This document shows positions 5,134 through 39,725 of a stretch of 39,725 nt of DNA, piece after piece. The notes beneath the pieces are model-generated. The model saw only the letters and a list, made by a program, of their open reading frames with translations. It was not told the origin of the DNA and did no database searches. Position 1 is the first letter of the stretch. Every line of letters begins with the position of its first letter. The DNA comes from Saccoglossus kowalevskii. Taxonomy: Eukaryota > Hemichordata > Enteropneusta > Harrimaniidae. The DNA is taken from the NCBI RefSeq assembly GCF_000003605.2, contig NW_003123414.1:333541-373265 (forward strand). Reading direction: 5' to 3'. A program made the translations under genes and the position numbers.

Positions 5134-6135
5134 TCAAGTAATTACGCTGAGTATATTCAAAAACACATTCCTGATTTCCTTCCTAAATGTTGATTGGCGG
5201 AGAACATATGAAATCGGGCCCAGTGATACAAAGCTGAAAACAAAGAAAAATATGGACATCACTGTTCCTAATTGGTCACGGGAAAGTTCAATTGATCTAT
5301 GATTGAGTATTTGTATTGTCACGAGGGATGGTCCCCAACTAAAAACTACAATGAGCAAAATAATCATTAAACTAATCGTACTTTTACGATGAATATTCAG
5401 TTTTGTTGTTGGCGGTCCGTTTATTATAAAGTGTATACTATGAATTTTCCTTGCGAACAATTTTGCTTTGTATATCATATGAAAGTTCAGTATGATCATT
5501 ATCAAAAATGAAGGCAACAGAAAGACATAAAACACGATATAACGATGGATGTCCGAGTACACAGCAGTAGGGGTACACGACCCATTCACAGTGGTTAACT
5601 CGCTACAGCCATATGCCGGCGCAAACCCGGTCAATACTGAAACCACCCACACTACAATGATTAAGACCAATACAAGTTTCTTCTTCAGTCGCTCATGCTT
5701 AAAAGGATAGAATATTTTGAAATACATATCCAACGTCCAAGCCAACATACTGAGGACGAAAGAAAGGATACAGAATATGGGAGTGAAGGCCACCAGTATG
5801 CATGGGAATATATTCGTGAAGTACAACACAGATGTAAACATAATCCCATTGAGCGGGACGGTGAAGACACCCTGGAGCACATTGGCAATTGTAAAATTAA
5901 TAAAGAAAAAATGTTTTTCATCTCGGAGATTTCTTCTCAGTACAATTGTCAGTAAAACAAGCAGATTGGTAGCTAGGATAGTATAATTGATGACGTATGC
6001 TGAGTACAGTATCCATGTGATGATGGGAAATGTGGGAACATGGGACCCATCGTTAGCAATGTAAGACTCCGTAGATGACATGTTTGTTCCGAGCATGGCT
6101 AAAGTTTCATCTTTTAAGGCGGCCACATTCAGCAT
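5134..6135 (-). CDS. Orphan rhodopsin-class (class A) G protein-coupled receptor
   Basis: An intact single-exon gene for 333 aa. It has a short N-terminus with an N-glycosylation site (N18) and seven hydrophobic segments. Class A landmarks are present: N57 in TM1 (1.50), C112 at the start of TM3 with a partner Cys in extracellular loop 2 (C177 or C187), D136-M-Y in place of DRY, W163 in TM4, P208 in TM5, and FSWGPS in TM6 in place of CWxP. Two switch residues are unusual: the TM2 sodium-site Asp (2.50) is Asn85, and TM7 has GPxxY (306-310) instead of NPxxY. The C-terminal tail is very short. Single-exon, lineage-expanded orphan receptors of this kind are common in marine invertebrates. The ligand cannot be inferred. 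The start is the first Met of the frame; Met15 and Met19 are alternatives. Confidence 0.85.
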   Translation of the reverse strand: MLNVAALKDETLAMLGTNMSSTESYIANDGSHVPTFPIITWILYSAYVINYTILATNLLVLLTIVLRRNLRDEKHFFFINFTIANVLQGVFTVPLNGIMFTSVLYFTNIFPCILVAFTPIFCILSFVLSMLAWTLDMYFKIFYPFKHERLKKKLVLVLIIVVWVVSVLTGFAPAYGCSELTTVNGSCTPTAVYSDIHRYIVFYVFLLPSFLIMIILNFHMIYKAKLFARKIHSIHFIINGPPTTKLNIHRKSTISLMIILLIVVFSWGPSLVTIQILNHRSIELSRDQLGTVMSIFFFVFSFVSLGPISYVLRQSTFRKEIRNVFLNILSVIT

Positions 6136-6990
6136 ATAGCAACTCCTACATTCCTTCGTTGTTCCTTTGTGACTTTACCGAAAACCAGTAATTGATGGTG
6201 AATGATATACTTCGTCTCGGTACATTGTATCGATGCAGCAAACTTCAGTTACAGTGGAGATTACTGTCAAAGATGCAAGAGCCAATTTGCGTAAATATTC
6301 AAGTTCACCTGGTATACTGAATCTGCTAACAGAGCTCACAGAAATACGCCTGGCAGCCTCGATTGTCAGTGTGTAATTGACGACTGTTACTGTGTATCTG
6401 TAAGTATATGAGAAATTTGATCGTATCGAGATCACTGCCAATCATAAATGTCTTTGATACGAAGTTTACTTTCAACAGTCGATACATACATACAATCTAA
6501 CCATGTCCCTTACGAATATGAAATACACATAATAATGCAAACCTTGTAATATCAGACTAATAAACATGGAACTTGATTAAAAAGAAAAATCGAAACATAT
6601 CGCGTATCACGTTGCTGTTTTTTTTCTCAACGTGACCATTGACGGTCCATACATTGTGCGTATCTGTTTTTCAGTGGACTTAACCCGAGATGAGGGCGGT
6701 GTAATACAATAAAAAACGAAAGAAAAAAAACGAGTGAAAATAACTGACGTTGATCATGGATAAATGAATATGCCGTGTATTTCCCGCGAAAGAAAATATT
6801 CCATTGCAAGTATGATGTTCTAAGAGAGTGAATTTAACCAGTGGTGATTCGGAATACGCTGATTTACCACTGACGTTATAATAGTATTCATGAAAGTTGA
6901 ATACATACATTCTCTCGAAACAGAGAGAGGGGATACGAAATATCAGCCAACAATTTCAACACTATTAGCGATTGTCACGTGTCTAAATGT
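6136..6990. other. Intergenic, upstream of the GPCR
   Basis: This should contain the promoter and 5' untranslated sequence of the minus-strand GPCR gene. No coding exon, tRNA or defined repeat was recognised. The minus-strand reading frame at 6175-6441 has no recognisable domain and is not called. Confidence 0.35.
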
Positions 6991-11799: not shown

Positions 11800-11935
11800 T
11801 TGATATAGTTTTCTATCGTTTATTTTCACCATGCGCAATAACAGTTTCTGCCATTGGTTCCAGAGAGCATCGACGTGACCCTTTGCCTGAGCTGGATCAT
11901 CGTTATCATGTGGGAGAATTGGTATCTTTGAAGAG
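11800..11935 (+). promoter_or_regulatory. Conserved 5' block of PIDD-like gene A (possible 5' UTR exon)
   Basis: This stretch is strongly conserved with 24540-24640 upstream of gene B, while the flanks are less so. It contains a polypyrimidine/acceptor-like CATTGGTTCCAG followed by ATCGACGTGACCCTTTGCCT in both copies. It may be a 5' untranslated exon or a proximal control element. No TATA box or transcript evidence can be given. Confidence 0.35.
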
Positions 11936-11978
11936 AAACAATTTATCTTAATCTAATTGTAATGAATTGTACTTAAAG

Positions 11979-14900
11979 ATGAATCTACTCCAGTATTGCG
12001 ACCGGTCTAGTGAGAAATTATGTTTTACCTCAATAACACAATTACCACCATCAATAGTAGAATTCCATCGTCTACGAGAACTTGTGTTGGCAAATAATCA
12101 GCTAAAGACGTTACCAGAAGAATTGGCTAACTTGCAAAACCTTAAGATATTGGATGTATCACACAATGCATTGACGAAGTTCCCGTCTGTTGTTTGTAAC
12201 TGCCTAACATTACACGGTTTAAGCGTTGCAGACAATAAGTTGAAAACAATACCTGCAAATATTTCCAGATTGCAACAACTAAACCACATCGATGTTTCAT
12301 ACAACCGCATCAAGTCAATACCGTCAGAACTTTGGACATTAAGACAGCTTAAAGTGGTTAATATGAATAACAATTTAATCTCATCTATATTACCGAATAT
12401 ACGGAGACTATGTCAACTTTATTGGCTGGGACTAGCTAACAATGTCATCCAATCAATCCCTGATGAAATAGGTATGTTCACCTTTGTTATTAATAATTGT
12501 GAAATGTTTTTAAAAAATCAGATCCGTGAATGAATCATGATCATGTTACATGCTTGGTTTAATACAAATCGCAGCACCAATACTATACTTACATACCATA
12601 TAACATACATATATACTGTTTGTCTTCAAATGATTTAACTAGGAAACCTCGACCATCTTCGGTTTTTGGATCTGCGAAACAATCGTCTACATGGAGTACC
12701 ACAAGGAATATACGATATTATAAGTTTGGCAACGCTGTTACTCGATGGAAACCCAATGTACACACAAACAAGACATTATCCAGGTAACACGTTATATGCT
12801 TAAGTGTACAACTAGAGCACGCTAATTCCGTCATGTGTTTTGTGGATCTGTCTCAATTATAATACTTGAATACACTTGAAAGTCCTGTACACTTATCACA
12901 TTCAGTTAAAAAGAAAATATGTTTTTCAGAAGCAGAAAAAAGACCCACATAATCTGTCAAAAAAGCATCAATACCGACAGATATGATTCAATCAACAACA
13001 CACATTTCATTTCTCAGTAAGTGCACGTGTCATTTCATTGGCAGACATGATTTCTGTTAATACAATGCTCAACATAATTGAGTGAATAAAACATAACACG
13101 GGTTGCGTGGCACAGTGAGATGAACGTCTGCTTTCAGTGGCGAAGTGTTTATTCATGGTTGTGAGCTCTATCCCTGTGTGTGTGTATCTTAGTAATATGC
13201 CTTTTATTATATTTACCTTATTGTGTATATCTTTTCCCATGCACCATGTTTTACTAGTGAAATCAAGTGTTATGACCTTTGATCTTTGATCATTGCCTGA
13301 TCTTGCACATGTCGACAAGACTACGAAATGACACAATAGTGTTGAAATCTGCATCGTTGTGAAAAACAATTTGTCATCATATAATTTATATTTATTCTCT
13401 AATTATTTAGTGAAAACGACAGAGAAAGTAGTCACCGTGGAGTTAGACAATGAGGTAATGAGTTAATAAGCTATATACACACGATATCAAGGTTATTGAA
13501 GCGATTATTCTGAACGCAGCTATTCAATAGCACGTCTCTTGAAAATATATCATTTTTAATCGCCGGCCCCAAATACATAATCGCCATTCATTCGATTAAT
13601 GCAAAAATTGTCATCTTGTTTTACAGAAAACTGTGTCTTACAGTATCGGAAATGGATTTTCCCTTTCGGTTCCTCCTGGATCAGTTCAGAGTCCAATTCA
13701 TCTGACTATCACAACATTACAAGACAATTGTTTAAAGAAAATGTTGGGTGACTACGAAATGATTGAATCAGACATAATTGAAATCTCGCCTAATACATAT
13801 GAGTTCATACAACCAGTAACACTAGGATTTAAATGTCCATCTATGAATTCGAAATCGCTCTGTATTAAGACAATCGGTGGTAGGAAGAAATGGAAAAATG
13901 TGTCTACAAAACAGGTGATTAGATGCATGAATGTTCTAACTGTTACAGCGCATTAGAGTAAGACTTCCCAAATGCCTCGATTCTACCTCATAACAAATAG
14001 AACAAAACAAATACACATGTGACAGAACAAATACACATGTGAAACTCAGTTTTATTAATGACTGCGTGAGTGAACATTTAACCTGTCATAATGGCTTCTA
14101 TTTCCATATCATATCATATTGTCGAAAGCACTGTGCCAATGTTGCAATTTGTATCACTACAATGTTGACTTAATCAGAAGGATTTACTGAATTCCAAGAA
14201 GTAACCTAAACACATTTATTTATTTATTATTATTTTTCTTTTGGTTATTGTTTTAGACAACAGATGGTGTGTTAGCAAAAATACGTAAATGTGCCATGTT
14301 TGTCGTGTTATCAACTCCTAAAGTGCAAAAGTGTAACGTTAATGATCAAGGTGGTAGAATTGTATCTGAAATTACAGAGGATGTAGTTATTGACTTTCCC
14401 CCAAATGCTGTAATGGATGACATGTGCCTGTCTATGACGGTAAGAAATCGTTGAGTAGACATGCAATGACAGTTATATGTTCAACTCTCACTGATAACGA
14501 GTCAGTTTTGGGATGATATTATAAGAAGAGACATTCTGAAATATATTACATGCCCTATCCACGATACCGATCCCAGAATACACTCTAAGGGATGGTCGGG
14601 TTATCTTACACTATGGATTGACCATACATATGAGTCATGTGAAGGATAATTAAATACTACATGTGAAGAATTGTCCCTAACCAATCAAAAGTCCAAATAT
14701 GACTGAATTAGTTGATCACCGTTTATGTATACCAATGTCGAGCTTTAGGTATGTTTCTCCACTGAAACTACGATAACATTATTCTGCACAATTTAAATAA
14801 CTACTACAGTGTATTATGAGAACGATCAGCAGCATACCACGTTCATTTTCGTAAAGACGTGAAACAACCTATTAATAATTTACATTATCTCTTTTTACCC

Positions 14901-17900
14901 CCCCCCCCATAAATACATATTTGCTATACACTGCTGTAGGTACATATTCCTGACCCAAGCTTAACAGTGACTCATGACTCGTGTATCAAAGATAATGTTA
15001 TATTCGGTCCAATTGTTCAAATAAATGAGAAGAATAAAGAAAAGATACGCTTTGAGAAAGATGTAAAGTTCAGTCTTCCTGTGCCACCGTCAAAAGAAGA
15101 TCAGTTCCAACCACGAACTGTAATGGTGTTTTGTGATTCTGGTGATGGTCATTGGAAATTGATAACAAAAGAACACATGGTTGGCTCAGAGAAGACCACT
15201 GAATTCAACGTACGCCATTTTTCAGGGTAAGACATTATAAATGTACTTAAAGGAAAAAGATTTAAATGTAGAATGGAAAAAGCTGTTAGAGGTGTAATAT
15301 GTTGCCCCTGCCATATTCACAAACAAAATACAATCGTGCTTCTGGAGTAGACCCAAATCTGTATGCAGTTGATCTGCAGGCATGCAACAAATATGTCATT
15401 GTGTTGCTGATAATAATATTGTACTTGCTTGTAGAAGATAGTATTATGAATGTTTAATCAAAGAACCTGGTTTCACTGATGCATTTAATAATTCTGCCTT
15501 CAAACACTCTACATTCATCCAGGATGAAACTCCTGTTTTGCAAGCTGCTCTATCAAGTTTTTTTGGAGAAAACAGCTTATCTCAACATTCAAGCATTTAT
15601 ATGGCAGACACAAAAAATTGTGTAGACAGATGATCTTTGGTTGCTTTAACATCATTTGTCCTATGTCGAAGTTTTCTTTATGAATAGACTACTTATATTT
15701 ATATATGGCGAGTGTTATCAGTAGGAAAGGATATTCTCACTATTTTGTAAACACCTGATATCACTTCTTGGTCTTAAATTTGAAGCACTTATATCGTTCT
15801 TCTGTACACACATTTATGTGAATGCTTTGTGACCAATCATTTAATCTTGTGTAGCACATTAATTTATGCAATACTATACTCATTGTCCTATGTATGTGCA
15901 CATATGTACATTGTCCACGTATATTGTTATAGAAGATATTAAAACATATTACCCTGCTTTATTACACTGAACTGCCATGATATACGGGTAAATATATATA
16001 ATGATTCGTTATTCACAGATACACATCGATATCAATGCCTCGGAGATCATCCAGCTCTAAATGGCTGACAAGAAAATGTGAAAAACTGTTAGAAGTTATA
16101 AAATTGGGCGTTTTTAAAGTACAGCTCATTCTTATGCAAAAGAAAGATAACCCGAGGATGTTAGTCCTCAGTTTAGTGAAAGTACGTGAACTTGACACGA
16201 AGCTTAACAAGTTAAAAGAACTTGGATATAATAACAACGGACTACCATACAGCAATGTTTTTGAGATGGTGAATGGAGATATGATATCGATTGCTGTTGA
16301 TGAGAGATTTGTCATTGAGTCAGCCGACACACCCACATTTACTGAAAATGGATTAAATGATTATGAAATAATAGTAAGTCTGAAGTCACATAGAAATAGC
16401 AGAGTTCAAGGTGGTGTGATTGGTCACTTGGAATGTACATATGAAGGAAAGGAACAACAACAGGAAAGAACTAAATGTTGTGGCATTAGTGATTCTATGG
16501 GCGAGACACTGACTATGAAGTTATCATTCTGCCTTCCACAGGTTCGTCACATCATATCAATTATGGGTATTATAACCCCGATTATTTGTTGTAATATTAC
16601 GAATTACATATAATTACATGCACTCGAGAACGACATATTCCCTGACTCTGACACTCTACTAATTGATTTCATTACGTTTGTTCATTCATTATAGAATGCA
16701 TGGGTTGCATCAAACACGAGTAATGGTGAGTGATTCTGCAATGATGGTTCTCGTAACGGTTCGAAAATGATTTTGTATTATTTTTTGTGATCAAACGAAT
16801 CATTACATGAATTGGCCATTAAACAGGTGCTCTTAATACATCCACATGTTAGGAATATTGGAAAACACAATTGCTGAACACAATTCTGGAAAGTAATTAT
16901 GTTATTTATTATTAATATTATTTATTTATTATTTTATTTATGATAAAATTACAATTCTTGCAATATTTAGATATGGTTACTGAAAATTGTTCATAATATA
17001 TAGCTTATATTCAATATGTCTGCATTCAATGATTATTTTGTCTCGTTAATTTTCTCTTAAAAAGTTGAACCAATGGTACCCTTGATAGATACACGGTACA
17101 CTAACTCTGATAACAATGAGGCAGGTATGTTAAACATAAATTGTGATCAGGACAATATAATTTAAAAATAGATATATTGGAAAATTATTCTGATTTATTG
17201 TCTTGTTTGCAGTTGGTTTACTGGTTTGTTTTATTTATGTCAAGTTTTGTTCATTTTTTCAACAGATGTGGAGCCACGAAATAATAATGACAATGAATCA
17301 GGTTGGTTCAATGCTGCTATTTATTACTATTTTTTTGGAAAAACGAGTTTCGAGTTTTCCGTTATTTGCAATTTATCACTTTGTTCACTGACCCAGATTC
17401 TTCCCAAGAAGACCTGCATACCATAAATGGATTAATAATCGGCAGTCAAGAAGATCAGGATCTCACTGAGTCAGCTGGTATTGTTTTATGTTATTATATA
17501 TCTGTCACCGTAATGCCACAAGTTACAGCGTGTCGTAATTTTGCGTTTTTTTACGGAATATTTTTCATCCTACCATATAAGGAAATGCAAATTCCAAATA
17601 TGGAACGCAGCCCCCAGGGTTTGATCATACCCAATACAAGGAAGTTCGCTCAATCTGTTCTAAACTTTTTTTATTTGAAAAGGAAAAGATGTATAATAAT
17701 AAGGTTATTACAAGGATACCGAAAGGTATGCACTCAGACAGTATCAACCTTCCTTTCATGTCAGGTCTATATTCCCACTATACTGTCTTTGTGCATACTT
17801 TTCGGTGTCCTTCTAATAACCTCATATTATTTGTAACAGTATACACATCAACCTCAACCATTCATTCCCAAATGATCGATGATAAATAAATTACTCGTCG

Positions 17901-18301
17901 TCTTTTGTTTTACGTAATCGTTGAAATAACATATTTTAATTAATATATTAAAACCAATAAAACATAATTAAATAAATGCTTTTTTTAACAGCTGACTAAT
18001 GTTTCATTTTGTCTCTTTAGGTTTGACAGCGTTAACAGATTTAGTATCCAGAGAGCTTCCTCTTCATGAATGGAAGAGCTTCGGTCGTCTGAGACTTGGC
18101 TTGAAAGACATAGAATTAGAAAATATTGCCTATGATTATCGTGATAGTGTGCTAGAGCAGAAATACCAAATGCTTTACCTTTGGACGCGAAAAGTCGGAA
18201 ACGATGCGTCTGTTTGCAGACTATATTCTTATCTACAAGAACATAAACTGTGCAGAGCTGCTGACAAGTTGAAACAATTCGTAACTGCAGATAAAAACTA
18301 G
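11979..18301 (+). CDS. PIDD1-like: PIDD1-like protein A: LRR - ZU5 - ZU5 (HFS autoprocessing) - UPA - Death domain
   Basis: Twelve coding exons: 11979-12471, 12643-12783, 13411-13454, 13627-13914, 14257-14439, 14940-15226, 16019-16541, 16695-16725, 17065-17124, 17266-17301, 17397-17477, 18021-18301. All junctions are GT-AG in matching phase and the sum is 2448 nt, giving 815 aa. Residues ~35-205 hold seven or eight LRRs of the LxxLxLxxNxLxxLP type. Residues ~215-340 are the first ZU5 and ~341-480 the second, ending in the autoproteolysis motif H476-F-S478. Residues ~480-653 are UPA, ~654-722 an acidic linker of small phase-1 exons, and 723-815 the Death domain. This is the domain order of vertebrate PIDD1 (910 aa in human), the scaffold that activates caspase-2 through RAIDD. 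The first autoprocessing site is lost: K333-C-A335 stands where HFS is expected. The ATG at 11979 is preferred because it matches that of gene B. Confidence 0.87.
13097..13290 (+). mobile_element. Possible tRNA-derived SINE in intron 2 of gene A
   Basis: Intron 2 of gene A is 627 nt against 286 nt in gene B; the extra sequence lies roughly between 12990 and 13290. Inside it an A-box-like GTGGCACAGTGAG (~13108) is followed about 50 nt later by a B-box-like GGTTGTGAGCTCTATCCC (~13156), the spacing of a tRNA-like pol III promoter head. No clear target-site duplication or A-rich tail was found, so the assignment is tentative. Confidence 0.33.
14272..14304 (+). other. Degenerate first autoprocessing site of PIDD-like A (KCA in place of HFS)
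   Basis: Just upstream of the second ZU5 the chain reads K333-C334-A335-M336-F337. In vertebrate PIDD1 the corresponding HFS-W-F marks the first self-cleavage point (Ser446 in human). The downstream S-x-P block aligns without a gap, so H, F and the nucleophilic Ser appear substituted. Cleavage here is predicted to be impossible. Gene B has the same change (K332-C-A334-K). Confidence 0.7.
15215..15226 (+). other. Intact second autoprocessing site of PIDD-like A (HFS)
   Basis: The end of exon 6 encodes R-H476-F477-S478-G479, with the Gly codon split by the intron. This corresponds to the second PIDD1 self-cleavage point (Ser588 in human), which releases the UPA-Death fragment that drives caspase-2 activation in mammals. 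His and Ser, both needed for the ZU5/UPA N-O acyl-shift mechanism, are present. Confidence 0.8.
17490..17690. repeat. Dispersed repeat, copy in intron 11 of gene A
   Basis: A stretch beginning TATATATCTGTCACCGTAA and containing AAGTTACAGCGTGTCGT and AATTCCAAAT-ATGGAA also occurs at about 24381-24511 upstream of gene B. The two positions are not equivalent within the duplication, and intron 11 of gene B lacks the sequence. It therefore behaves as an independently inserted element of unknown type. It covers much of a 177-residue open frame at 17303-17836 that is not protein-like. Confidence 0.55.
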
Positions 18302-18659: not shown

Positions 18660-18968
18660 AACATTGGGTGGTAGTGCATTAGTGGAGCAATAAGCTTAGC
18701 TGGATATGCACTGATGATCCAATAATCTTGGCTGTCTTTGACTGTGCACTTTGACTTGTTTGGCTTTGACTGGTTGTGCACTGATGGAACAATAACCGTG
18801 ACTGGCTGTACACCATTGGAGGAATAACCCTGGTTGGCTGTTCACTAATGGAGAAATAACCTTGGCTGGCAGTAGTGTGGGCAATAAACTTGGCTGGCAA
18901 TAAACATTGTAACCTTGTACTGATGGGATAATAATGTTGACTGGCTCTACACCAGTGTAGCAGTGACT
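18660..18968. repeat. Degenerate ~32-bp minisatellite downstream of gene A
   Basis: About nine imperfect copies of a unit resembling TGCACTGATGGAGCAATAAC plus CTTGGCTGGCTG. The same family, with about 18 copies, lies downstream of gene B at 32395-32990. The array was therefore part of the duplicated block and has since changed copy number. Open frames through it on the minus strand are by-products of the repeat. Confidence 0.88.
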
Positions 18969-18984
18969 GTTGATATTTCAAATT

Positions 18985-20600
18985 GTTTCACTGTATAAGG
19001 AACAGGAGAACAGGATAGTGTTTGCCAACCCAAAAGTCCTGACCCAGATGGATTGGGAGAGGCAGAAATCAGCCACCATCTGTCACATATGCACAAAGCT
19101 ACTTAATGGTGACTCAGTTCATTTCCATTGTCACTGGAAAATACCGAGGTGTCACCCACAATGCATGTACCTTTAAGCTGAGATCACAGACATTCGAATC
19201 GTTTCACAGAGAAGCACAAAGAAGTATGTCTTCATCTCCCCAGGCAGTCTTCTGTATTATATAGCTCAATATGAGTGATGATCACTGTTGCTGTGGAAGG
19301 GTATCTTTTCATATGAGTATATGGTCCTTTGGCAGTAGTTAGCAGATTCACAAATTCCTCAGGGCGTTATGCGAAGACTAACAACCCACTAGCAGAGGGC
19401 TATAACAATTCTAAGCCAAACTATATCCTCCACTTAGATGCCAGCAACATTTATGCCTGGGCAATCAGTTACCTGCTGTGGAAGTTGGCTTCAAGTGGGT
19501 TTGCAGGGGCCAAATTAAGTCTTGCAGCAGTCAGGTCAGAGGGCTTGACCTCGATTACCCAGACGAGTTACACGATATGCACAATGCCTACCGATTGGTG
19601 CTAGAGCACATAGTGGTTCAGAAAGAGTGGATGATCCCATGGGGTGTTAGGGTGGCACCGAACAAGTTCGAAAAGCAGATTTCCAACCTTTATGATAAAG
19701 AACAGTATATACTTCATTATCACAATCTGCAGCTCTATATATCCTTGGTATGTTTTTGTGACAAATTAAGCAAGCTTTGGCCAGAGGCCTTGACTGGGGC
19801 CTTATATCAAAATGAATACTGAGCTTTGAAAGAAGGCAACCAATGACATCGAGAAGGATCTGCACAAGCTAATGAACAACTCAGACTTTGGGAGAATCTC
19901 TGCAAGTTAGTTAATGTCAATCTTGAGGACATATTAAAGTGCCAGTAAGACATCGCATTCTTTGCATGAACCATTATCTTTGAGGATGAGCTTACGGCCC
20001 AGTTCCATAAGAACCATTTGGTGTTTAACCAGCCTTTATATGCGTGTGTGAGTATTCTTGACTTCATTCCTTATGTATATATTACAACCAGGTAAACACC
20101 TTTTATGGAGAGCATCGTCAGCTCATATATACAGTCACTGACGTTTTCCTACTTGCAACCAATGCAGAAGATGTCTACAAGAACATGGCCAAGGACATGA
20201 CATATATGATACATCTGATTTCCTGTACAGCACAACACGTTTTATAGAACGGGTGTGCTGGATGTCCCATGTTGGGCTGCACACCAAGATGTAGCCGATT
20301 CTAGAGGTTAGTGGAGGAAACATCAGAGAGGGTGTGAAAAAACATTTGGCATGAACATTATCAAGGGGTCCTCTTTGGCAGAAGAGTCTTCCGCCATGTA
20401 ATGCATGTGCTATGGTCTGAGTCAACTGAATCTACATGCAGCACCTGAATAAGGTATCACTGTGTTCCTTTGGAGTATTAAATAAGAGACTGTATAACCC
20501 TGTTCGTCGGAAGTTTAGTGTAAGGCAGCATCAGAAGGTGCTCATCCTTAATAAATCAATGAAGTGTCCCATCTAACAGATAATACAATATGGGCTTGTC
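18985..20600 (+). pseudogene. Decayed Polinton/Maverick-type family B DNA polymerase
   Basis: Fragments in several frames match the conserved layout of protein-primed family B polymerases of Polinton-type elements, in the right order on the plus strand. At ~19078-19150 there is a Cys/His zinc or endonuclease-VII-like segment (CHICTKLL, FHCHW). At ~19419-19461 there is a polymerase motif (LDASNIYAWA). At ~19829-19885 the KLMNNSDFG block appears, and near 20200-20225 a YDTSD block. Stops and frameshifts separate them, so the gene is dead. No integrase, packaging ATPase, capsid gene or terminal repeats of the element were seen. It sits between the two duplicated units. Confidence 0.62.
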
Positions 20601-24511: not shown

Positions 24512-24704
24512 TGTAGACAGTAGTTCGCTACGCATCGACCTCCGCTGTTTCTATCATTTGTTTCACCATGTCTAATAACAGTATCTGCCATTGGTTCCAG
24601 TGAACATCGACGTGACCCTTTGCCTGAGCTGGATCATCATTACCACCCTTGAATAGAAACAATTTATCATAATCTAATCTGATTGTAACGAATTCTACTT
24701 AAAG

Positions 24705-27700
24705 ATGGATCTACTCCAGTCTTGCGACCCGTCTATTGAGAAATTAACTCTTAGCTCAAGAAAAATACCACCATCAATAGCAAAATTCCATCACCTACGA
24801 GAACTTGTGTTGGCAAATAATCGGCTAAAGACTCTACCAAAAGTATTAGCTAAATTGCAAAACCTTAAGATATTGGATGTATCACACAATGCATTGACGA
24901 AGTTGCCGTCTGTTGTTTGTAACTGCCTAACATTACACGGTTTAAGCGTTGCAGACAATAAGCTGAAAACAATACCAGCAAATATTTCCAGATTGCAACA
25001 ACTAAACCACATCGATGTTTCATACAACCGCATCAAGTCAATACCGTCAGAACTTTGGACATTAAGACAGCTTAAAGTGGTTAATATGAATAACAATTTA
25101 ATCTCATCTATATCACCGAATATACGGAGACTATGTCAACTTTATTGGCTGGGACTAGCTAACAATGTCATCCAATCAATCCCTGATGAAATAGGTATGT
25201 TCACTATTTTATTGATAATTGTGAAATTATTTTAAAAAATCAGATCCGTGAATGAATGTTACATGCTTGGTTTCATACAAATCGCAGCACTAAATTCGGT
25301 AGTATATTGTCACTATACATATATACCATATAACATACATATATACTGTTTGTCTTCAAATGATTTAACTAGGAAACCTAGACAATCTTCGGTTTTTGAA
25401 TCTGAGAAACAATCGTCTACATGGAGTACCACAAGGAATATACGATATTATAAGTTTGACAACGTTGTTTCTCGATGGAAACCCAATGTACACACAAACA
25501 AGACATTATCCAGGTAATATAAACATGATTAAATGTATAACAATAACAATTCCGTAAAATGTTTTACGGATTTGTCTCAATTATATTTTGGAATTTGAAG
25601 AGTTATGTACACTTTTAGCTATAATGAACATTTTCTTTCTGAAAGTGAAAAAGACCATAATCATTTTCATTTCAAATGAAATGCATCTCAACTCCTGGTC
25701 TTGCAAATGACAGCAAGATCACGGAATACCATATTAACAACGTTTTGAAAAACAAATTGCGATCACCTTATAATTTATCTTTATTGTCGAATTATTTAGA
25801 GAAAAAGACCGAGAAAGTAGTCATCGTGGAGTTAGACAATGAGGTAATGAGTAAATAGCTATATACACACGATATCAAGGTCTTTGAACGAAGTCATTCG
25901 ATAGCACGTCTCTTGAAAATATATCATTTTAAATCGCCGGCCCCAAATACGTAATCGCCATTCATTCCTTTGATGCAAAAATATTCATCTTGTTTTACAG
26001 AAAACGGTGTCTTACAGTATCGGAAGAGGCTTTTCCCTTTCGGTTCCTCCTGGATCAGTTCAGAGTCCAATTCATCTGACTATTACAACATCACACGATA
26101 AGAGTTTGAAGAAAATATTGGGTGACTACGAAATGATTGAATCAGACATAATTGAAATATCACCTAATACATATGAGTTCATACAACCAGTAACACTAGG
26201 ATTTAAATGTCAATCTATGAATTCGAAATCGCTCTGTATTAAGACAATCGATGGTAGGACGAAATGGAAAAATGTGTCTACAAAACAGGTGATTAGGATG
26301 CAATATTAGCGGATAGATAGAAATGTTGCTTCTACTTGTTCGTTGCAACGCAATATAGTAAAACAAAATTAATTCTATGTGTAAACATTTAACCTACAAA
26401 AATTGTCATGATGGCTTCTATTTCCGGCATATCACAATGTTATGAAACATTAGAGTGCCAGTGTTCCAGTTTGACGTATCACTACAATGTTCACAAGGTT
26501 TTATACTAAGAAGTATCCTAGACCCATTTATTTATTTATTATTTTTCAAATGGTTATTTTTTTAGACAACAGACGGTGTGTTAGCACAAATAAGTAAATG
26601 TGCCAAGTTTGTCGTGTTATCGACTCCCCGAGTGCAAAAGTGTAACGTTAATGATAGAGGTGGTAGAATTGTATCTGAAATTACAGAGGATGTAGTTATT
26701 GACTTTCCCCCAAATGCTGTAATGGATGACATGTGCCTGTCTATGACGGTAAGAAAGCATAGGGGAGTTTATATACTACATGTGAAGAATGTTACCCAAC
26801 CAATCAATAGGCCAAACATAACTGAATTATTTGATCGTGTGCCTTCTACGTGATTTAAAACACAGATTTATTTTCGCAAACACGTGAAAAAACTCTTTAT
26901 ATTTACATTATCTCTTTCTATTTCCCCCCTCCATACACTGCTGTAGGTACATATTCCTGACCCAAGCTTAACGGTAACTCACGACTTATGTAAAGAAGAC
27001 ATTATATTCGGTCCAATTGTTCAAATAAATGAGAAGAATAAAGAAACGATACGCTTTGAGAAAGATGTAAAGTTCAGTCTTCCTGTGCCACCGTCAAAAA
27101 AACGTCAGTTCCAACCAAGAACTGTAATGGTGTTTTGTGATTCTGGTGATGGACATTGGAAATTGGTAACAAAACAAGACATGGTTTGCTCAGAGAAGAC
27201 CACCGAATTCAACGTACGCCATTTTTCAGGGTAAGACATTAAGATTTTCAGTTAGCGCTGTCACACTCTGAGATTGAGATACAAGATGGAATGTACTAAT
27301 ACCAAATGAATTTACAACAGAATCTTAACAAAGGTTTCTGTAACATATTTTGACACATAAGCTTGAAAAGCATATTGAACCTGACATACTTTCAGAATGG
27401 ATAAGGCTATGTAGTATGCCGCCTCATGTTATTGTGTCTGCTGAAAAAGTGGTTAATAATAATGTGTTTGTATGTAGGAGATAATATTATGAATTTTTAT
27501 TCAAGAAACCTGGTTTCTCTGATGCATCTAGTAATTCTGTCCATGAACACGCTACATTCAGACATGATGAAAGTAAAGTAAAATAAATATTTGCTGAGAG
27601 AACGTCTTATATTGATATTCAAGCGTTTCCATGTCAGAAAAAATACGAAAAGTCATTGAGGCATATGTCTCTGGTTACTTTAACATCATTTGCCAAATCT

Positions 27701-30700
27701 ACCTTCATGAATTTTCTACTTAGATATGCGTCAGGTGATAGTGGTAGGGCAGGATATGCTTAGTCTTGATATCAATTCCTGGTCTTACCTGTGAGATCCA
27801 TATATCATTCATTTGTATATACCTTTATGTGAATTTTCAGAGACAGATAATTTCATTTCGTACAGCACATTAGTTTATGTAGCACTGTACACATTTTCCT
27901 GTGTATAACACTGCGATAAAAATTGTGAAATTCTTTCGTTTTTATGCAGAAAATACAATATTTTTAACAAGGGAAGTCATATTTATTAAAGTTATTGTTC
28001 ATATATAGTTTGTAATTTTATTCAGCTTCTTTCAGTCATAACAAATAAAAAGCAAAAATATTGAGAATATGCAAATTATCTTTTTTTTGTAATATTCTTG
28101 TGTAACCGGTAATTGTGAAAATTATTTATGGGGCACAGGGAATACATTTCGTTATGAATTATTCTTGATATTTTCTTGTCAAAATATTGTTTTTTCATGT
28201 GTTGTTTTCTCACAAAAAAAGAAAGAATTTCACAAATTCAAAAACGGAAAGTCTTTATCGTAGTGTTGTTTGTGCATAAACATACTTTGTATGTTGTTGG
28301 TGGTATAGAAGGTATATAAAGTTATTACACTGAACTGCCATGATATATGGGTAATTATATATACCAGTATACTCAATATTGCACAATTCACTCCATGTAT
28401 GCACTCGCCTGTGTCAATATATATCAATATATGTATACCCACCTTTGGCCGGGGGGTTATTGCTTGAATATATACAATAATTTACTATTCACAGATACAC
28501 CTCGATATCAATGCCTCGGGGATCATCCATTCCGAAACGGCAAATAAGAAAAATAATAAACAAAATTTTAAGAATGTTAAACGTGTTTGAAGTACAGCTC
28601 ATTCTTATGCAAAAGAAAGATAACCCGAGGATGTTAGTCCTCAGTATAGTGAAAGTAGATGAACTTGACAGGAAGCTCAACAAGTTAAAGGAACTTGGAT
28701 ATAATAACAGCGGACTACCATACAGCAAAGAGTTTGAGATGGTGAATGGAGATAAGATATTGGTTGACGTTGATGAGGGATTTAAGATTAAGTCAGCAGA
28801 CACACTCACATTTACTGAAAATGGATTAAATGATTATGAACTAATAGTAAGTCATAGAAATAGCAGAGTTCAATGTAGCGTGATTGGTCAATTGGCATGT
28901 ACATATGAAGGAAAGAAACAACAACAGGAAAGAACTGAATGTTGTGGCGTTAGTATTTCTATGGGCGAGACGCGGACTATGAAGTTATCATTCTGCCTTC
29001 CACAGGTTCGTCACATCATATCAATTATGGGTATTATAACGCCAATTATGTGCTGTAATATTACGAATTACATACGAATCATAGAATCAAGAATCAAACA
29101 TTCCCCGACACTCACACTTTACTAATTAATTTCATTACGTTTGTTTATTCACTATAGAATGCATGGGTAGCATCGAGCACAAGTGATGGTGAGTTTTTTT
29201 GCAATGACGGTTCTCGTAACGGTTCAAAAGTGATCAATTGTGTATTATTTTTTGTAATCAAACAAACCATTACATTTTTCTGCATTTATTCTTAATTATT
29301 CTTACATCCACATATTAAGTGTACTAGATTAATTAAAAGTGTTCATACCTTGTAGGTTTCATTCAATATTCAATATTTCTGCACTTAATGAATAGTTTAT
29401 GTTTTTCATGTTTCCATAAAAGTTGAACCAATGGTCCCTTTGTTGCACATGAATCCACGAGACACCGACACTGATGACAATGTATTCGGAGAGGCAGGTA
29501 TGGTATATATTATTTATGTTCTGGACAATATCTTCTTTATCATTTGTCGCGAAGAAGAATACTTGGCTCCCTGGTTTGTTTTATCAATATCAACTTTTGT
29601 CTAATTTTGACAGGTGTGGAGCCAAGGAATACTGACGAATCAGGTTGGTTAAATACTCACATTTTTTTCTATGTTATTGCAAATACATATGTAATTAACG
29701 AGTTTTAATTTTATGTGTGAAAAGGGGGGCGATTTGTAAATTGCAATATCATTTATTTCATTTTGTAATGCATTATAGTTGTGCAGGGCAGATAAATTGG
29801 AAAATTGTTCGAATTGATTTTTTTGTCGGATGTGGGTTGTTCCCTTAATTATTTATAGCTTAATGTACGTTTCCCCTTTCAGCAGTGCCCAACATGTTTG
29901 ATGATGTAGAACCAAGAAATAATATTAATGAATGTTTACAACCAGGTTTGTATTCATTACTTATATTTATTACTATTCTGTTTTAAAATACGTATGTGAT
30001 TATGGTTTTATTGAATACATTGCATACTATTGAATATATTTTCTTCCGTTATTTGCAATTTATATCTGTTTTAACAGACCCACATTCGTCCCACGAATAC
30101 CTGCATACCATAAATGGATTAATAATCGGCAGTCAAGAAGATCAGGATCTCACTGAGTCAGCTGGTATTGTTTTATATTATTCGTAATAGTATATATTTT
30201 ATATATAGTATATTTAGTATATTATAGCCATTCACTTCCAAAGATAATTGTTAACCAATGCCATGTTATTTCTTGCAGTGTGTGCTCAGACAAACTGCAT
30301 ATATATATCACGACTAGTATTTTAACGTGGGAATGAGTTGTTTACTTATTTTAATAATCCCCCGACATTACGAAATCACCAGCAAAGTTGTGATCGGTAT
30401 TCTGTTCACATATGTAATAGTACGCTTATTCAGAAAGATAACGTTAAGCTGCATCGGAAACGCGAACATCACACAAATAAACCGCATTGATGTTCATATA
30501 TATTACTCTTATAATGGTTGATGATAAATAAATTGCTCTTTATATTTGGATTGACGTGATTATTTTAATAACATATCTTCATCCATCTTCACAAACAACG
30601 AACAACTAAAATAATTTACTTTGTATTTATTTATTCAAATTTCATTCCAATAAAGTTAAATAAATATGTTTACAATTGGCTAATGTTTCTATTTTTTCTC

Positions 30701-30981
30701 TAGGTTTGACAGCATCAACAGATTTAGTATCCAGAGAACTTCCTCTCCGTGAATGGAAGAGGTTCGGTCGTCTGAGACTTGGCTTGAATGACATAGAGTT
30801 GGATGATATTGCCCGTGATTACTGTGATAGTGTACAAGAGCAGAAATACCAAATGCTTTACCTTTGGACGCGACAGGTCGGAAAGGATGCGACCGTTTGT
30901 AGACTATATTCTTATCTACAAGAACATAAACTGCGCAGTGCTGCTGAAAAGTTGAAACAGTTTGCTACTGCAAAACACTAA
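24705..30981 (+). CDS. PIDD1-like: PIDD1-like protein B: LRR - ZU5 - ZU5 (HFS autoprocessing) - UPA - Death domain
   Basis: Thirteen coding exons: 24705-25194, 25373-25513, 25800-25843, 26001-26288, 26566-26748, 26947-27230, 28495-29005, 29158-29188, 29423-29497, 29614-29643, 29886-29945, 30078-30164, 30704-30981. They are GT-AG, phase-consistent, and total 2502 nt, giving 833 aa. Domain order is as in gene A, with the intact H474-F-S476 site and the first site changed to K332-C-A334. Relative to A it has one additional linker exon (29886-29945) that duplicates its neighbour. A NAGNAG acceptor (CAGCAG) there could include or omit one codon. The C-terminal two-thirds of the LRR exon is almost identical to A, while the first ~30 UPA residues differ strongly. 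This suggests patchy gene conversion plus divergence. The role inferred is a Death-domain scaffold for a caspase, as for PIDD1. Confidence 0.87.
29423..30164 (+). other. Linker cassette exons of gene B, all phase 1
   Basis: The four exons 29423-29497, 29614-29643, 29886-29945 and 30078-30164 all begin and end in phase 1. They encode short acidic or polar segments with a repeated VEP(M/R) start (VEPMVPL, VEPRNTDES, DVEPRNNIN). Any can be skipped or duplicated without changing frame. The third resembles the second, and the intron sequence before it resembles that before the second, so an exon-plus-intron duplication is likely. Confidence 0.6.
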
Positions 30982-32394: not shown

Positions 32395-32995
32395 CCAATG
32401 AATGTGCACCAATGAAGCAATAATCTTGGCTGGCTGTGTACTAATGAAGCAATAACATTGACTGCACGTGCAATGATTGAGCAATAACCTTGGCTGGCTG
32501 TGCACTGATGGAGCAATAACATAGTCTAGCTATGTACTGATGGAGCGAAGAACTTGACTGGCTGTGCACTAAAAGGGCATTAATTCACAGGGCGTGTACT
32601 AATGGTGTAATAAGTTTGGCTGCATGTGCACCAATGAAACAATAACCTTGGCTAGCCGTGCACTAATGTGGCAATAACCTTGGCTAGCTGTGCACAGATC
32701 GAGCACTAACTTCGGCCGTCTGTGCACCAATGGAACAATAACGATGACTGTATGTGCACCAATGGAGCAATGACCTTGAATGGCTGTGCATTGATAAAGC
32801 AATAACTTTATCTGGCCGCTCACTGATGGGGCAATAACATTGACTACATGTGCACTAATAGAGCAATAACTTTGTCTGGCTGTGTCCCGAAAGAGCAATG
32901 ACATTGACTTGGTGTGCACAGGTGGAGCAATAATCTTGGCTGGCTTAGCCGCTGATGGAGCAATAACCTTAGACGACTGTGCACTGATTACTCAT
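32395..32995. repeat. Degenerate ~32-bp minisatellite downstream of gene B
   Basis: About eighteen imperfect copies of the same unit as at 18660-18968. Successive GCA(A/C)TGAT landmarks at 32470 and 32502 give a 32-bp spacing. It marks the right end of duplication copy B. Confidence 0.9.
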
Positions 32996-33435: not shown

Positions 33436-34902
33436 GTAAGTTTTTACAAGTTTATATATTTGTAGTTTATTTCGGAAAAGGAGTTAATGCACATTGTTGA
33501 AGTGACATAAAATGAAATTACAAACAAAAACTTTTTTCAAATTCAGCTTACATACTGATAACACATTGCTCCTCGATTCCTGTGCCCTACACTGTTTACA
33601 GATACCTCAGAAATGGAAACAGTCATAATTACAGACTAGCTTCGGTATTATCAGTTTAGTAGTGACGTTAAGACACAATCCTGTGTTTATCTCTTCCCAA
33701 TTCATTGATTCCAGTTTATAGTCCCATTGATAAAAGTAATCTAATCTTAGTGCTATATAAAATGATTTTTATTCCAATGACTTGTATAAAACATTATAAT
33801 CTAATCTACAATTAAATGCGCCCATGTTCGCCGTAAAAGTAAAATTTGACAAAATTATTTGAAATTATATCATCAATTATATCATTCCATATCATGGGAT
33901 AATATGAAATTTTGAGCACTTGTTTATTTCAATTCACTGTGGATTTGAATATTTGTTTGCATTTCAGAACAGTGTCTTTCTCTACTAATGTCAAAATTAC
34001 GTATACGGGTTAAGGCAGTGACTTTCAAATCAACCAGTGTGTTGTAGGGTAGGGGTTCATCATCTGGAATATAGTAAAATCACTTAAAAAACTAATTTTA
34101 ATTGTTTGACAACTACAAGTTGAACGTACTTATTATATGTTAATGCCATTTGAATACCGCTAAGCAAAGAGACCAAAATGAGATGGAAATTACGACAATT
34201 TGAATTGTTTCACTGCTTTCCATAAAGAAATAATTATTTCTTTATACCTAAAAATTTGTTTACGTAACATAGGATGAAAAAAGTCGTATAAAATTCTTCT
34301 AGTATTTTAAAAACATGTCTAAAAATAACATTTAGTTAAGTGAATTTTCAGTGTGGTAATAACAGAATGACATAATGCCATGGCCTCGTTCCGACGTTTG
34401 CGGGGTGTGAATTACGAGTGATATGGTGTATACTTGATCGTGGTTGGGTCAACAATATATTCAGTTTTTGTGAATTTTTGAAAGTCAGACTTGTACATGT
34501 ACTCGCACGTTAAAACACGTATCCACAGCTATGGTAAGATCAGACCCGTAACAAATTGTAGCAGTCTTGATTCTGATTGGTTCATAGAGTTATGAGCTAT
34601 GAGTAGGGAGTGGAAATCCTTAAAATGACGCCTGCTATCGTGATTTGTGATAGTTCACCTTGCGCTAAACATGTAATAAAGACGATTTAATTGAATAAAA
34701 CACAATAGCATATTTGAAATTCAGGAACGAACTGAATCACAATTAAATAATATTGAATCAATAATAGGAATGAATATCACAGTTATAATTAGGGAAATCA
34801 TAGTGGACTAGTCTCCTTCTCATCCAGAAACTTCCGTATTTTCTGTCACAGTGGTGTTCCACTACCTTTGACAATGTTGTACATACTTTGACATATCATG
34901 CA
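33436..34902. other. Intergenic region between duplication B and the LRR-caspase gene
   Basis: AT-rich, no further exon recognised. It should include the 3' untranslated part of the minus-strand LRR-caspase gene. I could not choose a poly(A) signal with confidence. Confidence 0.35.
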
Positions 34903-37441
34903 TTATTTAAACCATACTTTGCTACGAAGAGTATAGGTGGGGGCAGGAACTGTAGTATAAATCATATCGACCACCATATTTGATACAGCCTCGTTAACTC
35001 TCGTCATCATGTCCAGTAAATGTTCCTCGTCACTATACTGTTCCATGACGTCAACCAGTTTGCTGATATAAAAGCTGCCGTTGTTTTCGTCACGGTAGGA
35101 TACATATCCAGGTACGGTACTATAGCCTAATAGGAAGTCAGCCTCGCTCGGGATCAAAGATCTGATTTCATCGTCACCATCTGTCTCGACACCGGTCATG
35201 TTAGTCGTTCCCTGACACGCTTGAATGAAAAACAGTTTAGGTTTCCCCGCCAAAGTTGGACACCATGGCGATGTGAACAGTTTGGTCAGCTCTTTTATCT
35301 CGACATCCCGGTTATCTATACCATAGACTTTACCCAGTGCGCCATGGGATAGAATACAAACAACCAGACAGTCAAACCTCTTGTGGCTTTCTTTACTGAA
35401 TGCCTTCAACACCAATGTCATTTCCTCTGCTCCTAAGTTTGTATATTCGTGAACGCGAAAATGTAGGTTCGTGAACAGATGATACAGCCGTTCTGAAAAA
35501 GTACCAAAACGTCAACATTTAAAAAAATGTTCAGTATTGTTAATGCATATGTTAAAACGAGGGAGTCGTCACTTGCGCATGCGTCAGATGGCCATAGCGT
35601 GTCATTGTTTACAAACAAGCGTCTACCCATGACCCTTTGCGTCTTGTGTGTGTGTGTTGTTATCGTCGCTTGGAACTGGATTCCCGCGCGTGTGCAGGTG
35701 ACGACCCTTCCGCTTTAATTCTGCCACAACAATATCATATTGTTGGGAATGTGTCTTTTTGAGTTTTCTTAAATTCAAGATGGGGGCCAATCCACATGGG
35801 GAGACGTAAAACAATTATAAAACAATATTACACTTGGTACATACGTGCTGCAAGCCAAATTTAAGATCAAGGTGTTTAAAACGCGAGATTCGTCAGCTGC
35901 GCACGCCAGGGAATTGAGTCCTAAGCGACGATAACAACACACGCTAAAAACGCATTGGGTTCTATCAGTATACAAAATTTTAGATCAGGCCAAGGGGTGA
36001 TAATAGGGCCCACCCCTATTGATATGTATAGCTTATTGCCAACGTTCTCGTCGTCACATAAACTGCATATGTCAAGATTATTACTCGTGATCATACATAA
36101 TTGAATTCTGTAATTGAGATTATCATCTAAATAATGTAGCATACCTGCATCAACATCTGATCCTTTCCTTTCACGACCTGGTTCCATAAATTTCACATTA
36201 TTGATGATTATTGCTTCACCACGTGGTCGACGGTTCATAACATAACTATCACCTTGACTTGTGCTTCTTTTAGTTCTGGTGGGTGGGTTAGTTACATCCT
36301 GCATGGTCGCTGTATTCAGCTCACGCTGATGTGCTTGGACTTCAGGCCTTTGTGGCTGGACTTCTTCTGTAGGTGGGTCCTCAAACGGGAACGCGTCAAC
36401 ATCTTGCTGTAGCTTTGGATCCCCATCAAGGTCTACCCGATGCCGTTCATGGTCCGATCCCTTGGCGTCCGACTGATGCTCATCCACTTTTAAATTTGAC
36501 AAATCTTGCAAAGATCGTTGTTGTTTTTCATTCTGTGAGTAGTATCTTTGTACATCGCTGAGGCAGTTTTCTTTTTGACATATATTCTGTGGTGGTACCT
36601 TAAGTTGATTGTTTTGCAAAACCAGTTTTCGCAGTTTCCAAGTGCATAACTGGTGCGGGAATTGTTCAATGTTATTGTTGCTGGCACGTAAAATTACCAA
36701 CTGTTCACAGTTACGTAACGATTCTGGCAAAGCAGAAAGTTGATTGTAGGACACATTTAATTCGGTCAGTGACTGTAACATTGACATATTTGCAGGTAAA
36801 TGGGTCAGTTTATTGTTCTCCAGGTTCAGTACTTTCAGAGATGTGAATTTCAGGACAACTATCGGCAGCTCAGTGAACAAATTTCGCGCCAAATACAAAT
36901 GCTTTACTTGTGTCAGTACTTTCATGTTGGTTGGGAACGTTGTCAAATAGTTTTGGTTCAGCAATACTGTCTCGACTTGTCTGTACTTGGGATTCATCCA
37001 TATTTCATCCGGAACCTTTGTTATACGCTGGTTTTCTTTATCGTAGATACCTTCTGTTAGTTCTTCTTCTTCTTGGTGTTGGTATCGATATGACGAACTG
37101 ATGTTTTCACAGTAAGACCTCGATGAAGTTGTCTGTTTGTCGGAGTAGGTATGGGTGGATGGCTCAAGAGGGAAACCGATATTCTCGCAGTATGATGTCG
37201 ACGATGGTGTCTGTTTGTCGGAGTATGTGTGGATTGGTTCACGAGAAGAACTGAAACTGTCAGAATAACACTTCGGTAAAGTTGTTTGTTTGGCGGCGTT
37301 TGCTAACGTTGTTGGAGTCGTTGGATGAGGGTAGCTCAGACTGTCGGTTAATGAAGTTGGGTACTTGTAGTAAGGCGTCGAACAGAATGGACTTTTCGTA
37401 TTACCGGCTGCGTTTGCATATGGGTTAGGATAACTTGACAT
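34903..37441 (-). CDS. LRR-caspase fusion protein (complete caspase catalytic domain)
   Basis: Two coding exons on the minus strand, 37441-36145 and 35492-34903, joined in phase (1887 nt, 628 aa). The intron has donor CAG|GTATGC and acceptor TACTTTTTCAG. Residues 1-135 are Ser/Thr/Tyr/Pro-rich with a twofold repeat (HTYSDKQT...SYCENI). Residues ~153-290 are about six LRRs of the LP type. Residues ~300-400 are a charged linker, and ~405-628 a full caspase domain. The domain shows RGEAIIINN at 407, R425 in ERKGSDVDA, H482 in SHG, C525 in QACQG, VETD at 534-537 before the small subunit, and R566 in VSYRD. These cover the catalytic dyad, the S1-pocket arginines and a likely interdomain cleavage site. 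No CARD or DED is present. The intron cuts the conserved GxDVDA motif, which ties both exons to one protein. An acceptor at 37466 implies an upstream, probably untranslated, exon. Substrate Asp specificity is expected; the biological role is not known. Confidence 0.87.
35552..35718 (+). mobile_element. TTAA-type MITE, copy 3, downstream half of the LRR-caspase intron
   Basis: Complete element with TTAA at both ends (35552-35555 and 35715-35718) and the family ends GAGGGAGTCGTCACTTGCGC and GTGCAGGTGACGACCCTTCC. It lies within the intron of the LRR-caspase gene about 60 nt from the caspase-exon acceptor. Confidence 0.82.
35876..35953 (-). mobile_element. TTAA-type MITE, truncated copy 4
   Basis: Only one half of the element remains: TTAAAACGCGAGATTCGTCA, then the body GAATTGAGTCCTAAGCGACG and GCTAAAAACGCA as in copy 1, ending abruptly near 35953. 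It is also in the LRR-caspase intron. The frame of the LRR exon, if the intron is not removed, stays open into this element and stops there. Confidence 0.72.
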
Positions 37442-37769
37442 ATTGTTTGTATCCACGTGGTCGAGCTGAAGAAAAACAAACTTTGTATAATTAATTTTCT
37501 CAGTACAATTGACATTAGTACAAAATACAAAATAATATGTATTCATAGAAAACATCCATATCACGAGTTGGTCTGATAGCACCAGAAAAACGCGGAGTTT
37601 CAGCATTTCTGGGTTAATTATTGAGACATCCAATTTAGATCTATAACATGCACTTAAAAAGATTCCTAGTTTTGGATTCAATGCAAAGTTACTTGAGGGT
37701 TAACAATTTGAAATCAAAGAGGTTGGGTGATATATTTTTATTTTCCTGGTATGTGTTTTTTTTCAACAT

Positions 37770-39147: not shown

Positions 39148-39725
39148 TGCCAGGCGCGCAATGCACTTTATAATAATTATTTTTCACCGCAGGTTTGAGT
39201 TGCCTTATGTAGACTGTCTCAGTCTGGTGAACATGCTCATACAAGTAAGTGCATCACCATGACATCTATTCGTGGTAATAGCGATGCTATTGAATGGGAA
39301 GACAAAGAAATCAGTATCTCTAGTGGACTTTGAAATAAAGAAGAAGAAAAAATGTGGAAAAAGAATTTTGTAAAATTCTGTTCTGGAGGATCTTGGAGTT
39401 TTTCGAACTAATAAAAACGATGACATATAGCCTCGTACAAGTACAATCTGCGTTTGCTTTTATCAACGAGTTAGGGTACACTATCCCGTGTTATAGGACT
39501 ATTATGTTAATTTACAGTGACATGTGTTACGTCATAGAGGGCGCTATATGAGACATGAAATAGAGACGGCAGGGTTGAATTAGAGTTATGGGTGAGGGGC
39601 TCTAAGGAAGTCTTACCCAACGGCCATTGTTCATACCCAATGGTTTTGCTCCATTTCGAACTGGCAATTCTAATGCATGGAATTTTCTTACTAGTTACTA
39701 ATACTACAGTATGACTTGTAGTCTG

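Follow-up and report, generated by a model that had tools for sequence, protein, structure and literature searches.

A predicted protein of Saccoglossus kowalevskii that joins leucine-rich repeats to a complete caspase domain, encoded beside two PIDD-like genes

In a stretch of 39,725 nucleotides from the genome of the hemichordate Saccoglossus kowalevskii ("the window"), we found a minus-strand gene whose two coding exons, as read from the genome sequence, specify a product of 628 residues. The product is probably an intracellular LRR-caspase, that is, a procaspase of the apoptotic group that carries a low-complexity head and six SHOC2/LRRD1-like leucine-rich repeats (LRRs) in place of a death-fold domain. 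The gene model is sound: it places the LRR region and a complete caspase in one predicted protein, and we consider this architecture to be real at the level of the genome sequence.

Coding exon 1 (36145..37441, minus strand) encodes the head, the six LRRs, a linker, and the first strand of the caspase through the motif GSDVDA, as identified from its open frame and from Pfam matches to LRRs and to the caspase. Coding exon 2 (34903..35492, minus strand) encodes the remainder of the caspase domain and includes the stop codon; it was identified from its translation, Pfam, and the positions of motifs. These coordinates (37441..36145 joined to 35492..34903, giving 628 amino acids) were proposed in an earlier note on this DNA, and both they and its reading of the gene are correct. 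The start codon at 37441 lies within a minus-strand open frame that spans 592 codons, from 37699 to 35924 (its stop ends at 35921). Given the frame's own base composition, the probability that it would stay open by chance is about 6e-17. About 210 bases past the stop codon of the gene, there is an ATTAAA (34686..34691, minus strand), which is a possible poly(A) signal.

Pfam and a pattern search bear out the order of parts that the earlier note gave, with a Ser/Thr/Pro-rich head, six LRRs, and then a complete caspase domain in one chain. The profile search that it asked for on the 628-residue product matched Peptidase_C14, LRR_4 (5.4e-11), and LRR_8 (9.8e-10), all in Pfam. The pattern search of the 628 residues located six LRR units, which start at residues 156, 179, 202, 225, 248, and 270. 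Together with LRR_4 and LRR_8, these define a repeat region from residue 156 to about residue 293 (36563..36976, minus strand). Among the best 60 of 246 matches to solved structures, the top-scoring chains for the LRR part were LRRD1 and SHOC2, but this ranking is only a guide and a weak indication of where in the cell the protein resides, as the score of each chain is a sum over several repeat matches and as extracellular-type receptors are also among those 60. LRRD1 and SHOC2 are intracellular proteins and, unlike the LRR-caspase, they are not known to have a caspase domain. A crude hydropathy scan, which cannot stand in for a signal-peptide predictor, found no strongly hydrophobic N-terminus or membrane-like stretch. 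(In NCBIfam, the only matches for the LRRs were to bacterial LRR proteins, and every one was under the curated cut-off, so we disregarded them.)

The head (residues 1-125, with the boundary being our choice; 37067..37441, minus strand) is 43% Ser, Thr, or Pro. A segment that we summarize as TYSDKQT...SYCENI occurs in it twice, and each copy contains YCEN (residues 84 and 110). We judged this duplication by eye from the translation; TRF (at a score of 30) reported no tandem array in the DNA of this region. YCEN resembles the phospho-Tyr-x-Asn motif that SH2 domains bind.

The match to Peptidase_C14 (PF00656; E = 1e-56) spans residues 408-623 and covers positions 2-230 of the 233 in the profile, and the predicted domain appears to include the complete caspase fold, with both a large and a small subunit. 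In exon 2, on the minus strand, the motifs are SHG (codon from 35349), QACQG (from 35223), VETD (from 35190), and YVSYRD (from 35106), and all four could be aligned to chains of caspase-3, an ancestral effector caspase, and caspase-8. The chain thus contains both SHG and QACQG, and in caspases SHG and QACXG hold the catalytic His and Cys. The Arg preceding GSDVDA and the Arg of YVSYRD align with Arg in a caspase-3 chain, and these are presumably positions of the P1 pocket. VETD lies within the 22 residues that separate QACQG from ADF. Because SHG, QACQG, the two aligned Arg, and VETD between the subunits are all there, the LRR-caspase is likely to be active as a protease.

How might such a protein work? 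We suggest that it would be made as a cytosolic zymogen, and that its LRRs might bind a partner (a scaffold, a ligand, or a second protein with LRRs). Binding of the partner would gather copies of the LRR-caspase or would position the protease, and a cut in the VETD linker would then yield the active enzyme. The earlier note inferred that the protein might sense a ligand directly and be activated by proximity with no separate adaptor. The effector-like scores described below, together with the 22-residue linker, are as compatible with a cut made by another caspase as with activation by proximity.

The earlier note also took it for granted that this is an initiator caspase, which the comparisons with solved structures do not show (these are pairwise scores, not a tree). 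For the large subunit, among the best 60 of 181 matches, the ancestral effector caspase-3/6/7 scored highest (107.4 bits), followed by caspase-8 (102.0 bits), caspase-9 (95.7 bits), and caspase-3 (83.9 bits). For the small subunit, among the best 60 of 153 matches, the ancestral effector was again first (61.1 bits), caspase-3 and caspase-7 scored about 53-54 bits, a caspase-9 chain scored 50.9 bits, and there was no caspase-8 chain. These results raise a substantial possibility, albeit one that we do not favor, that the protein is a caspase of the executioner type. Its LRRs would then direct it to a site or to its substrates, and an upstream initiator would activate it by cutting at VETD, in place of activation by its own clustering. 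The stretch between QACQG and ADF, with 22 residues as compared to 25 in a caspase-3 chain, also fits an executioner. On the other hand, across the full domain, the best chains of caspase-3, caspase-8, and caspase-9 were nearly tied (153.2, 150.8, and 149.6 bits, among the best 60 of 227 solved chains; the ancestral effector caspase was solved as separate chains and was therefore left out of this ranking). Also, among the best 60 of 153 matches to the small subunit, a caspase-9 chain covers it whole while most caspase-3 chains cover only residues 1-59; the active site reads QACQG, as in caspase-8; and the N-terminal part, at about 400 residues, is long. The executioner reading differs from our preferred explanation in the mode of activation and not in the identity of the gene. 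Either way, we place the catalytic domain, from its sequence, in the apoptotic group (caspase-3/6/7/8-like). With caspase-8 and with the effector caspases-3/6/7, the LRR-caspase shares the catalytic domain, the active-site motifs, and the cleavage site in the linker. Caspase-8 has a pair of DEDs, which the LRR-caspase lacks, and effector caspases have a far shorter N-terminal part.

According to the earlier note, LRRs have replaced the recruitment domain. The part of this claim that stands is that, within the window, we found no recruitment domain: neither the 628-residue chain nor the upstream sequence has a Pfam match to a CARD, a DED, or a death domain, and so the CARD or DED prodomain that would mark an initiator was not seen in either place. 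For the upstream sequence, we searched all 37 same-strand stop-to-stop fragments of at least 20 amino acids between 37440 and 39725, although the window stops at 39725, which is 2.3 kb upstream, and smaller exons, or domains too finely split for Pfam, would escape this search. Thirty-six of the fragments gave nothing at E = 1 or better; for the remaining one, Pfam reported a sub-threshold match to a transporter (E = 0.082). The part that is less certain is the replacement itself, as there is likely an upstream exon, perhaps a non-coding one, before the ATG. We say this because a polypyrimidine-AG ends at 37466, just 24 bases 5' of the ATG (the candidate 3' splice site, polypyrimidine-cag, is at 37466..37480, minus strand).

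If that exon, whether beyond the window or undetected within it, encodes a death-fold domain, then the LRRs would be an addition and not a replacement. The quality of the candidate 3' splice site, the frame that remains open across it, and the end of the window only 2.3 kb upstream all leave room for this. Against it are the results for the 37 fragments and the ATG itself, which has an A at -3, and we consider a hidden death-fold domain to be rather unlikely.

The sequence supports the join of the LRR and caspase parts well, as the earlier note had argued. As the first caspase strand and GSDVDA are encoded in the same exon as the LRRs, the fusion does not depend on the intron call alone, and two genes are unlikely to have been falsely joined here. 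The intron (35493..36144, minus strand) is of the GT-AG type and interrupts a codon behind its first base, with CAG/GTATGC at the donor and TTTTTCAG/AAC at the acceptor (the slash marks the boundary). We compared it to the other GT-AG pairs whose donor lay in the open frame beyond about 36280, whose acceptor lay no further down than 35370, and whose intron had at least 60 bases. This gave 702 pairs, of which 443 yielded at least 60 amino acids. The proposed splice ranked first, with a summed score of 572 versus 502 for the runner-up; the score is the similarity to three caspase references, taken from the alignments with solved caspase chains, so it measures likeness to a protein and not the strength of the splice sites. 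That an LRR gene and an adjacent caspase gene were mistakenly joined is very improbable, because the LRR exon runs in frame into the N-terminal strand of the caspase and GSDVDA, and the frame of exon 2 has no ATG before the caspase residues ERLYHL, so that its first Met is inside the domain.

Beside the LRR-caspase, on the plus strand, are two tandem PIDD-like genes (11810-18298 and 24548-30978), and the second of these and the LRR-caspase are arranged tail to tail. The pair have 16 aligned DNA blocks in common, with 74-95% identity, and in the five blocks that hold the LRR, ZU5, HFSG, 16-kb, and death-domain stretches the identity is 86-93%. Each gene has an LRR stretch, a ZU5 stretch (3.7e-06 and 7.2e-06 in Pfam), an open stretch that ends in HFSG, and a death domain, matched in Pfam at 2.6e-12 and 5.8e-15. 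HFSG is the motif of PIDD self-cleavage. Several points speak against a close match. HFSG was found only once in each of the genes; six other matches to HFS or FFSG, from a scan of all plus frames in the window, look like chance, so by itself the motif is weak. In the stretches of these genes that we submitted to Pfam, neither a second ZU5 nor a UPA domain was recognized. Of the two death domains, we compared that of the second gene; chains from RIPK1, TRADD, and TNF receptors came ahead, and PIDD was last of 24. Judging from their sequences, then, we describe the neighbors as PIDD-like in layout, and we do not claim orthology to PIDD1. Similar 32-base tandem repeats lie behind both genes, at 32403-32985 (18.2 copies) and 18767-18874 (3.4 copies), and are perhaps part of the duplicated unit.

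PIDD1 has the architecture LRR-ZU5-ZU5-UPA-DD, is not known to carry a caspase domain, and recruits caspase-2 through RAIDD. Its likeness to the LRR-caspase is that it is an LRR protein of a caspase-activating network, and it is genes with a PIDD-like layout that adjoin the LRR-caspase. It is conceivable, albeit quite improbable, that the LRR-caspase belongs with the two PIDD-like genes to a single cell-death cluster, in which the LRR-caspase would correspond, as one chain, to the relay from PIDD through RAIDD to caspase-2. In such a cluster, sensor and protease would meet through pairing of their LRRs, with no death-fold adaptor. We also considered whether the LRRs of the LRR-caspase and of the PIDD-like genes share an origin, and we rejected their similarity as evidence for this: the best matches are 32-34% identical, which is ordinary for LRRs.

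Elsewhere in the window, a single open frame of 346 residues (5137-6174, minus strand) matches a rhodopsin-type seven-helix receptor (7tm_1, 1e-18). At 19317-19819 (plus strand), there are frames that we take to resemble the remnant of a protein-primed DNA polymerase; in Pfam, 19317-19601 matched nothing, and 19415-19819 (plus strand) matched DUF1186 alone, below the threshold.

The earlier note presented the arrangement of LRRs and a caspase as new, which it is not: LRRs-caspase hybrids of amphioxus have been in print since 2008 (Zhang et al., PMC2575513). In the accessible part of that paper, "LRRs-caspase" is listed among the hybrid genes, the hybrid proteins are said to retain QACXG, and a direct link from recognition to apoptosis, a "shortcut," is proposed for them, which is the same reasoning as in the earlier note. 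That part names cDNA support for other hybrids and states none for LRRs-caspase (PMC2575513). Comparing by description only, what the amphioxus hybrids and the LRR-caspase have in common is LRRs joined straight to a caspase with QACXG. The LRR-caspase of S. kowalevskii is therefore of the LRRs-caspase kind described from amphioxus, and it is another example and not a new kind. Xu et al. 2011 (PMC3196919) cite at least 45 caspase genes in amphioxus, and the main text of that paper, as far as it was available, does not contain "LRR" or "leucine." The same two words are absent from the available text of a survey of bivalve caspases (PMC7836458), and the available portions of PMC10155998 and PMC2246300 hold nothing on LRR-caspases.

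Overall, the interest of the LRR-caspase lies chiefly in how cleanly the gene can be modelled and in its PIDD-like neighbors. It adds a member to a kind of protein that, in the accessible parts of the open-licence literature that we found, is otherwise reported only from amphioxus. If it works, it would offer a natural test of whether binding by LRRs alone can activate a caspase without death-fold assemblies.
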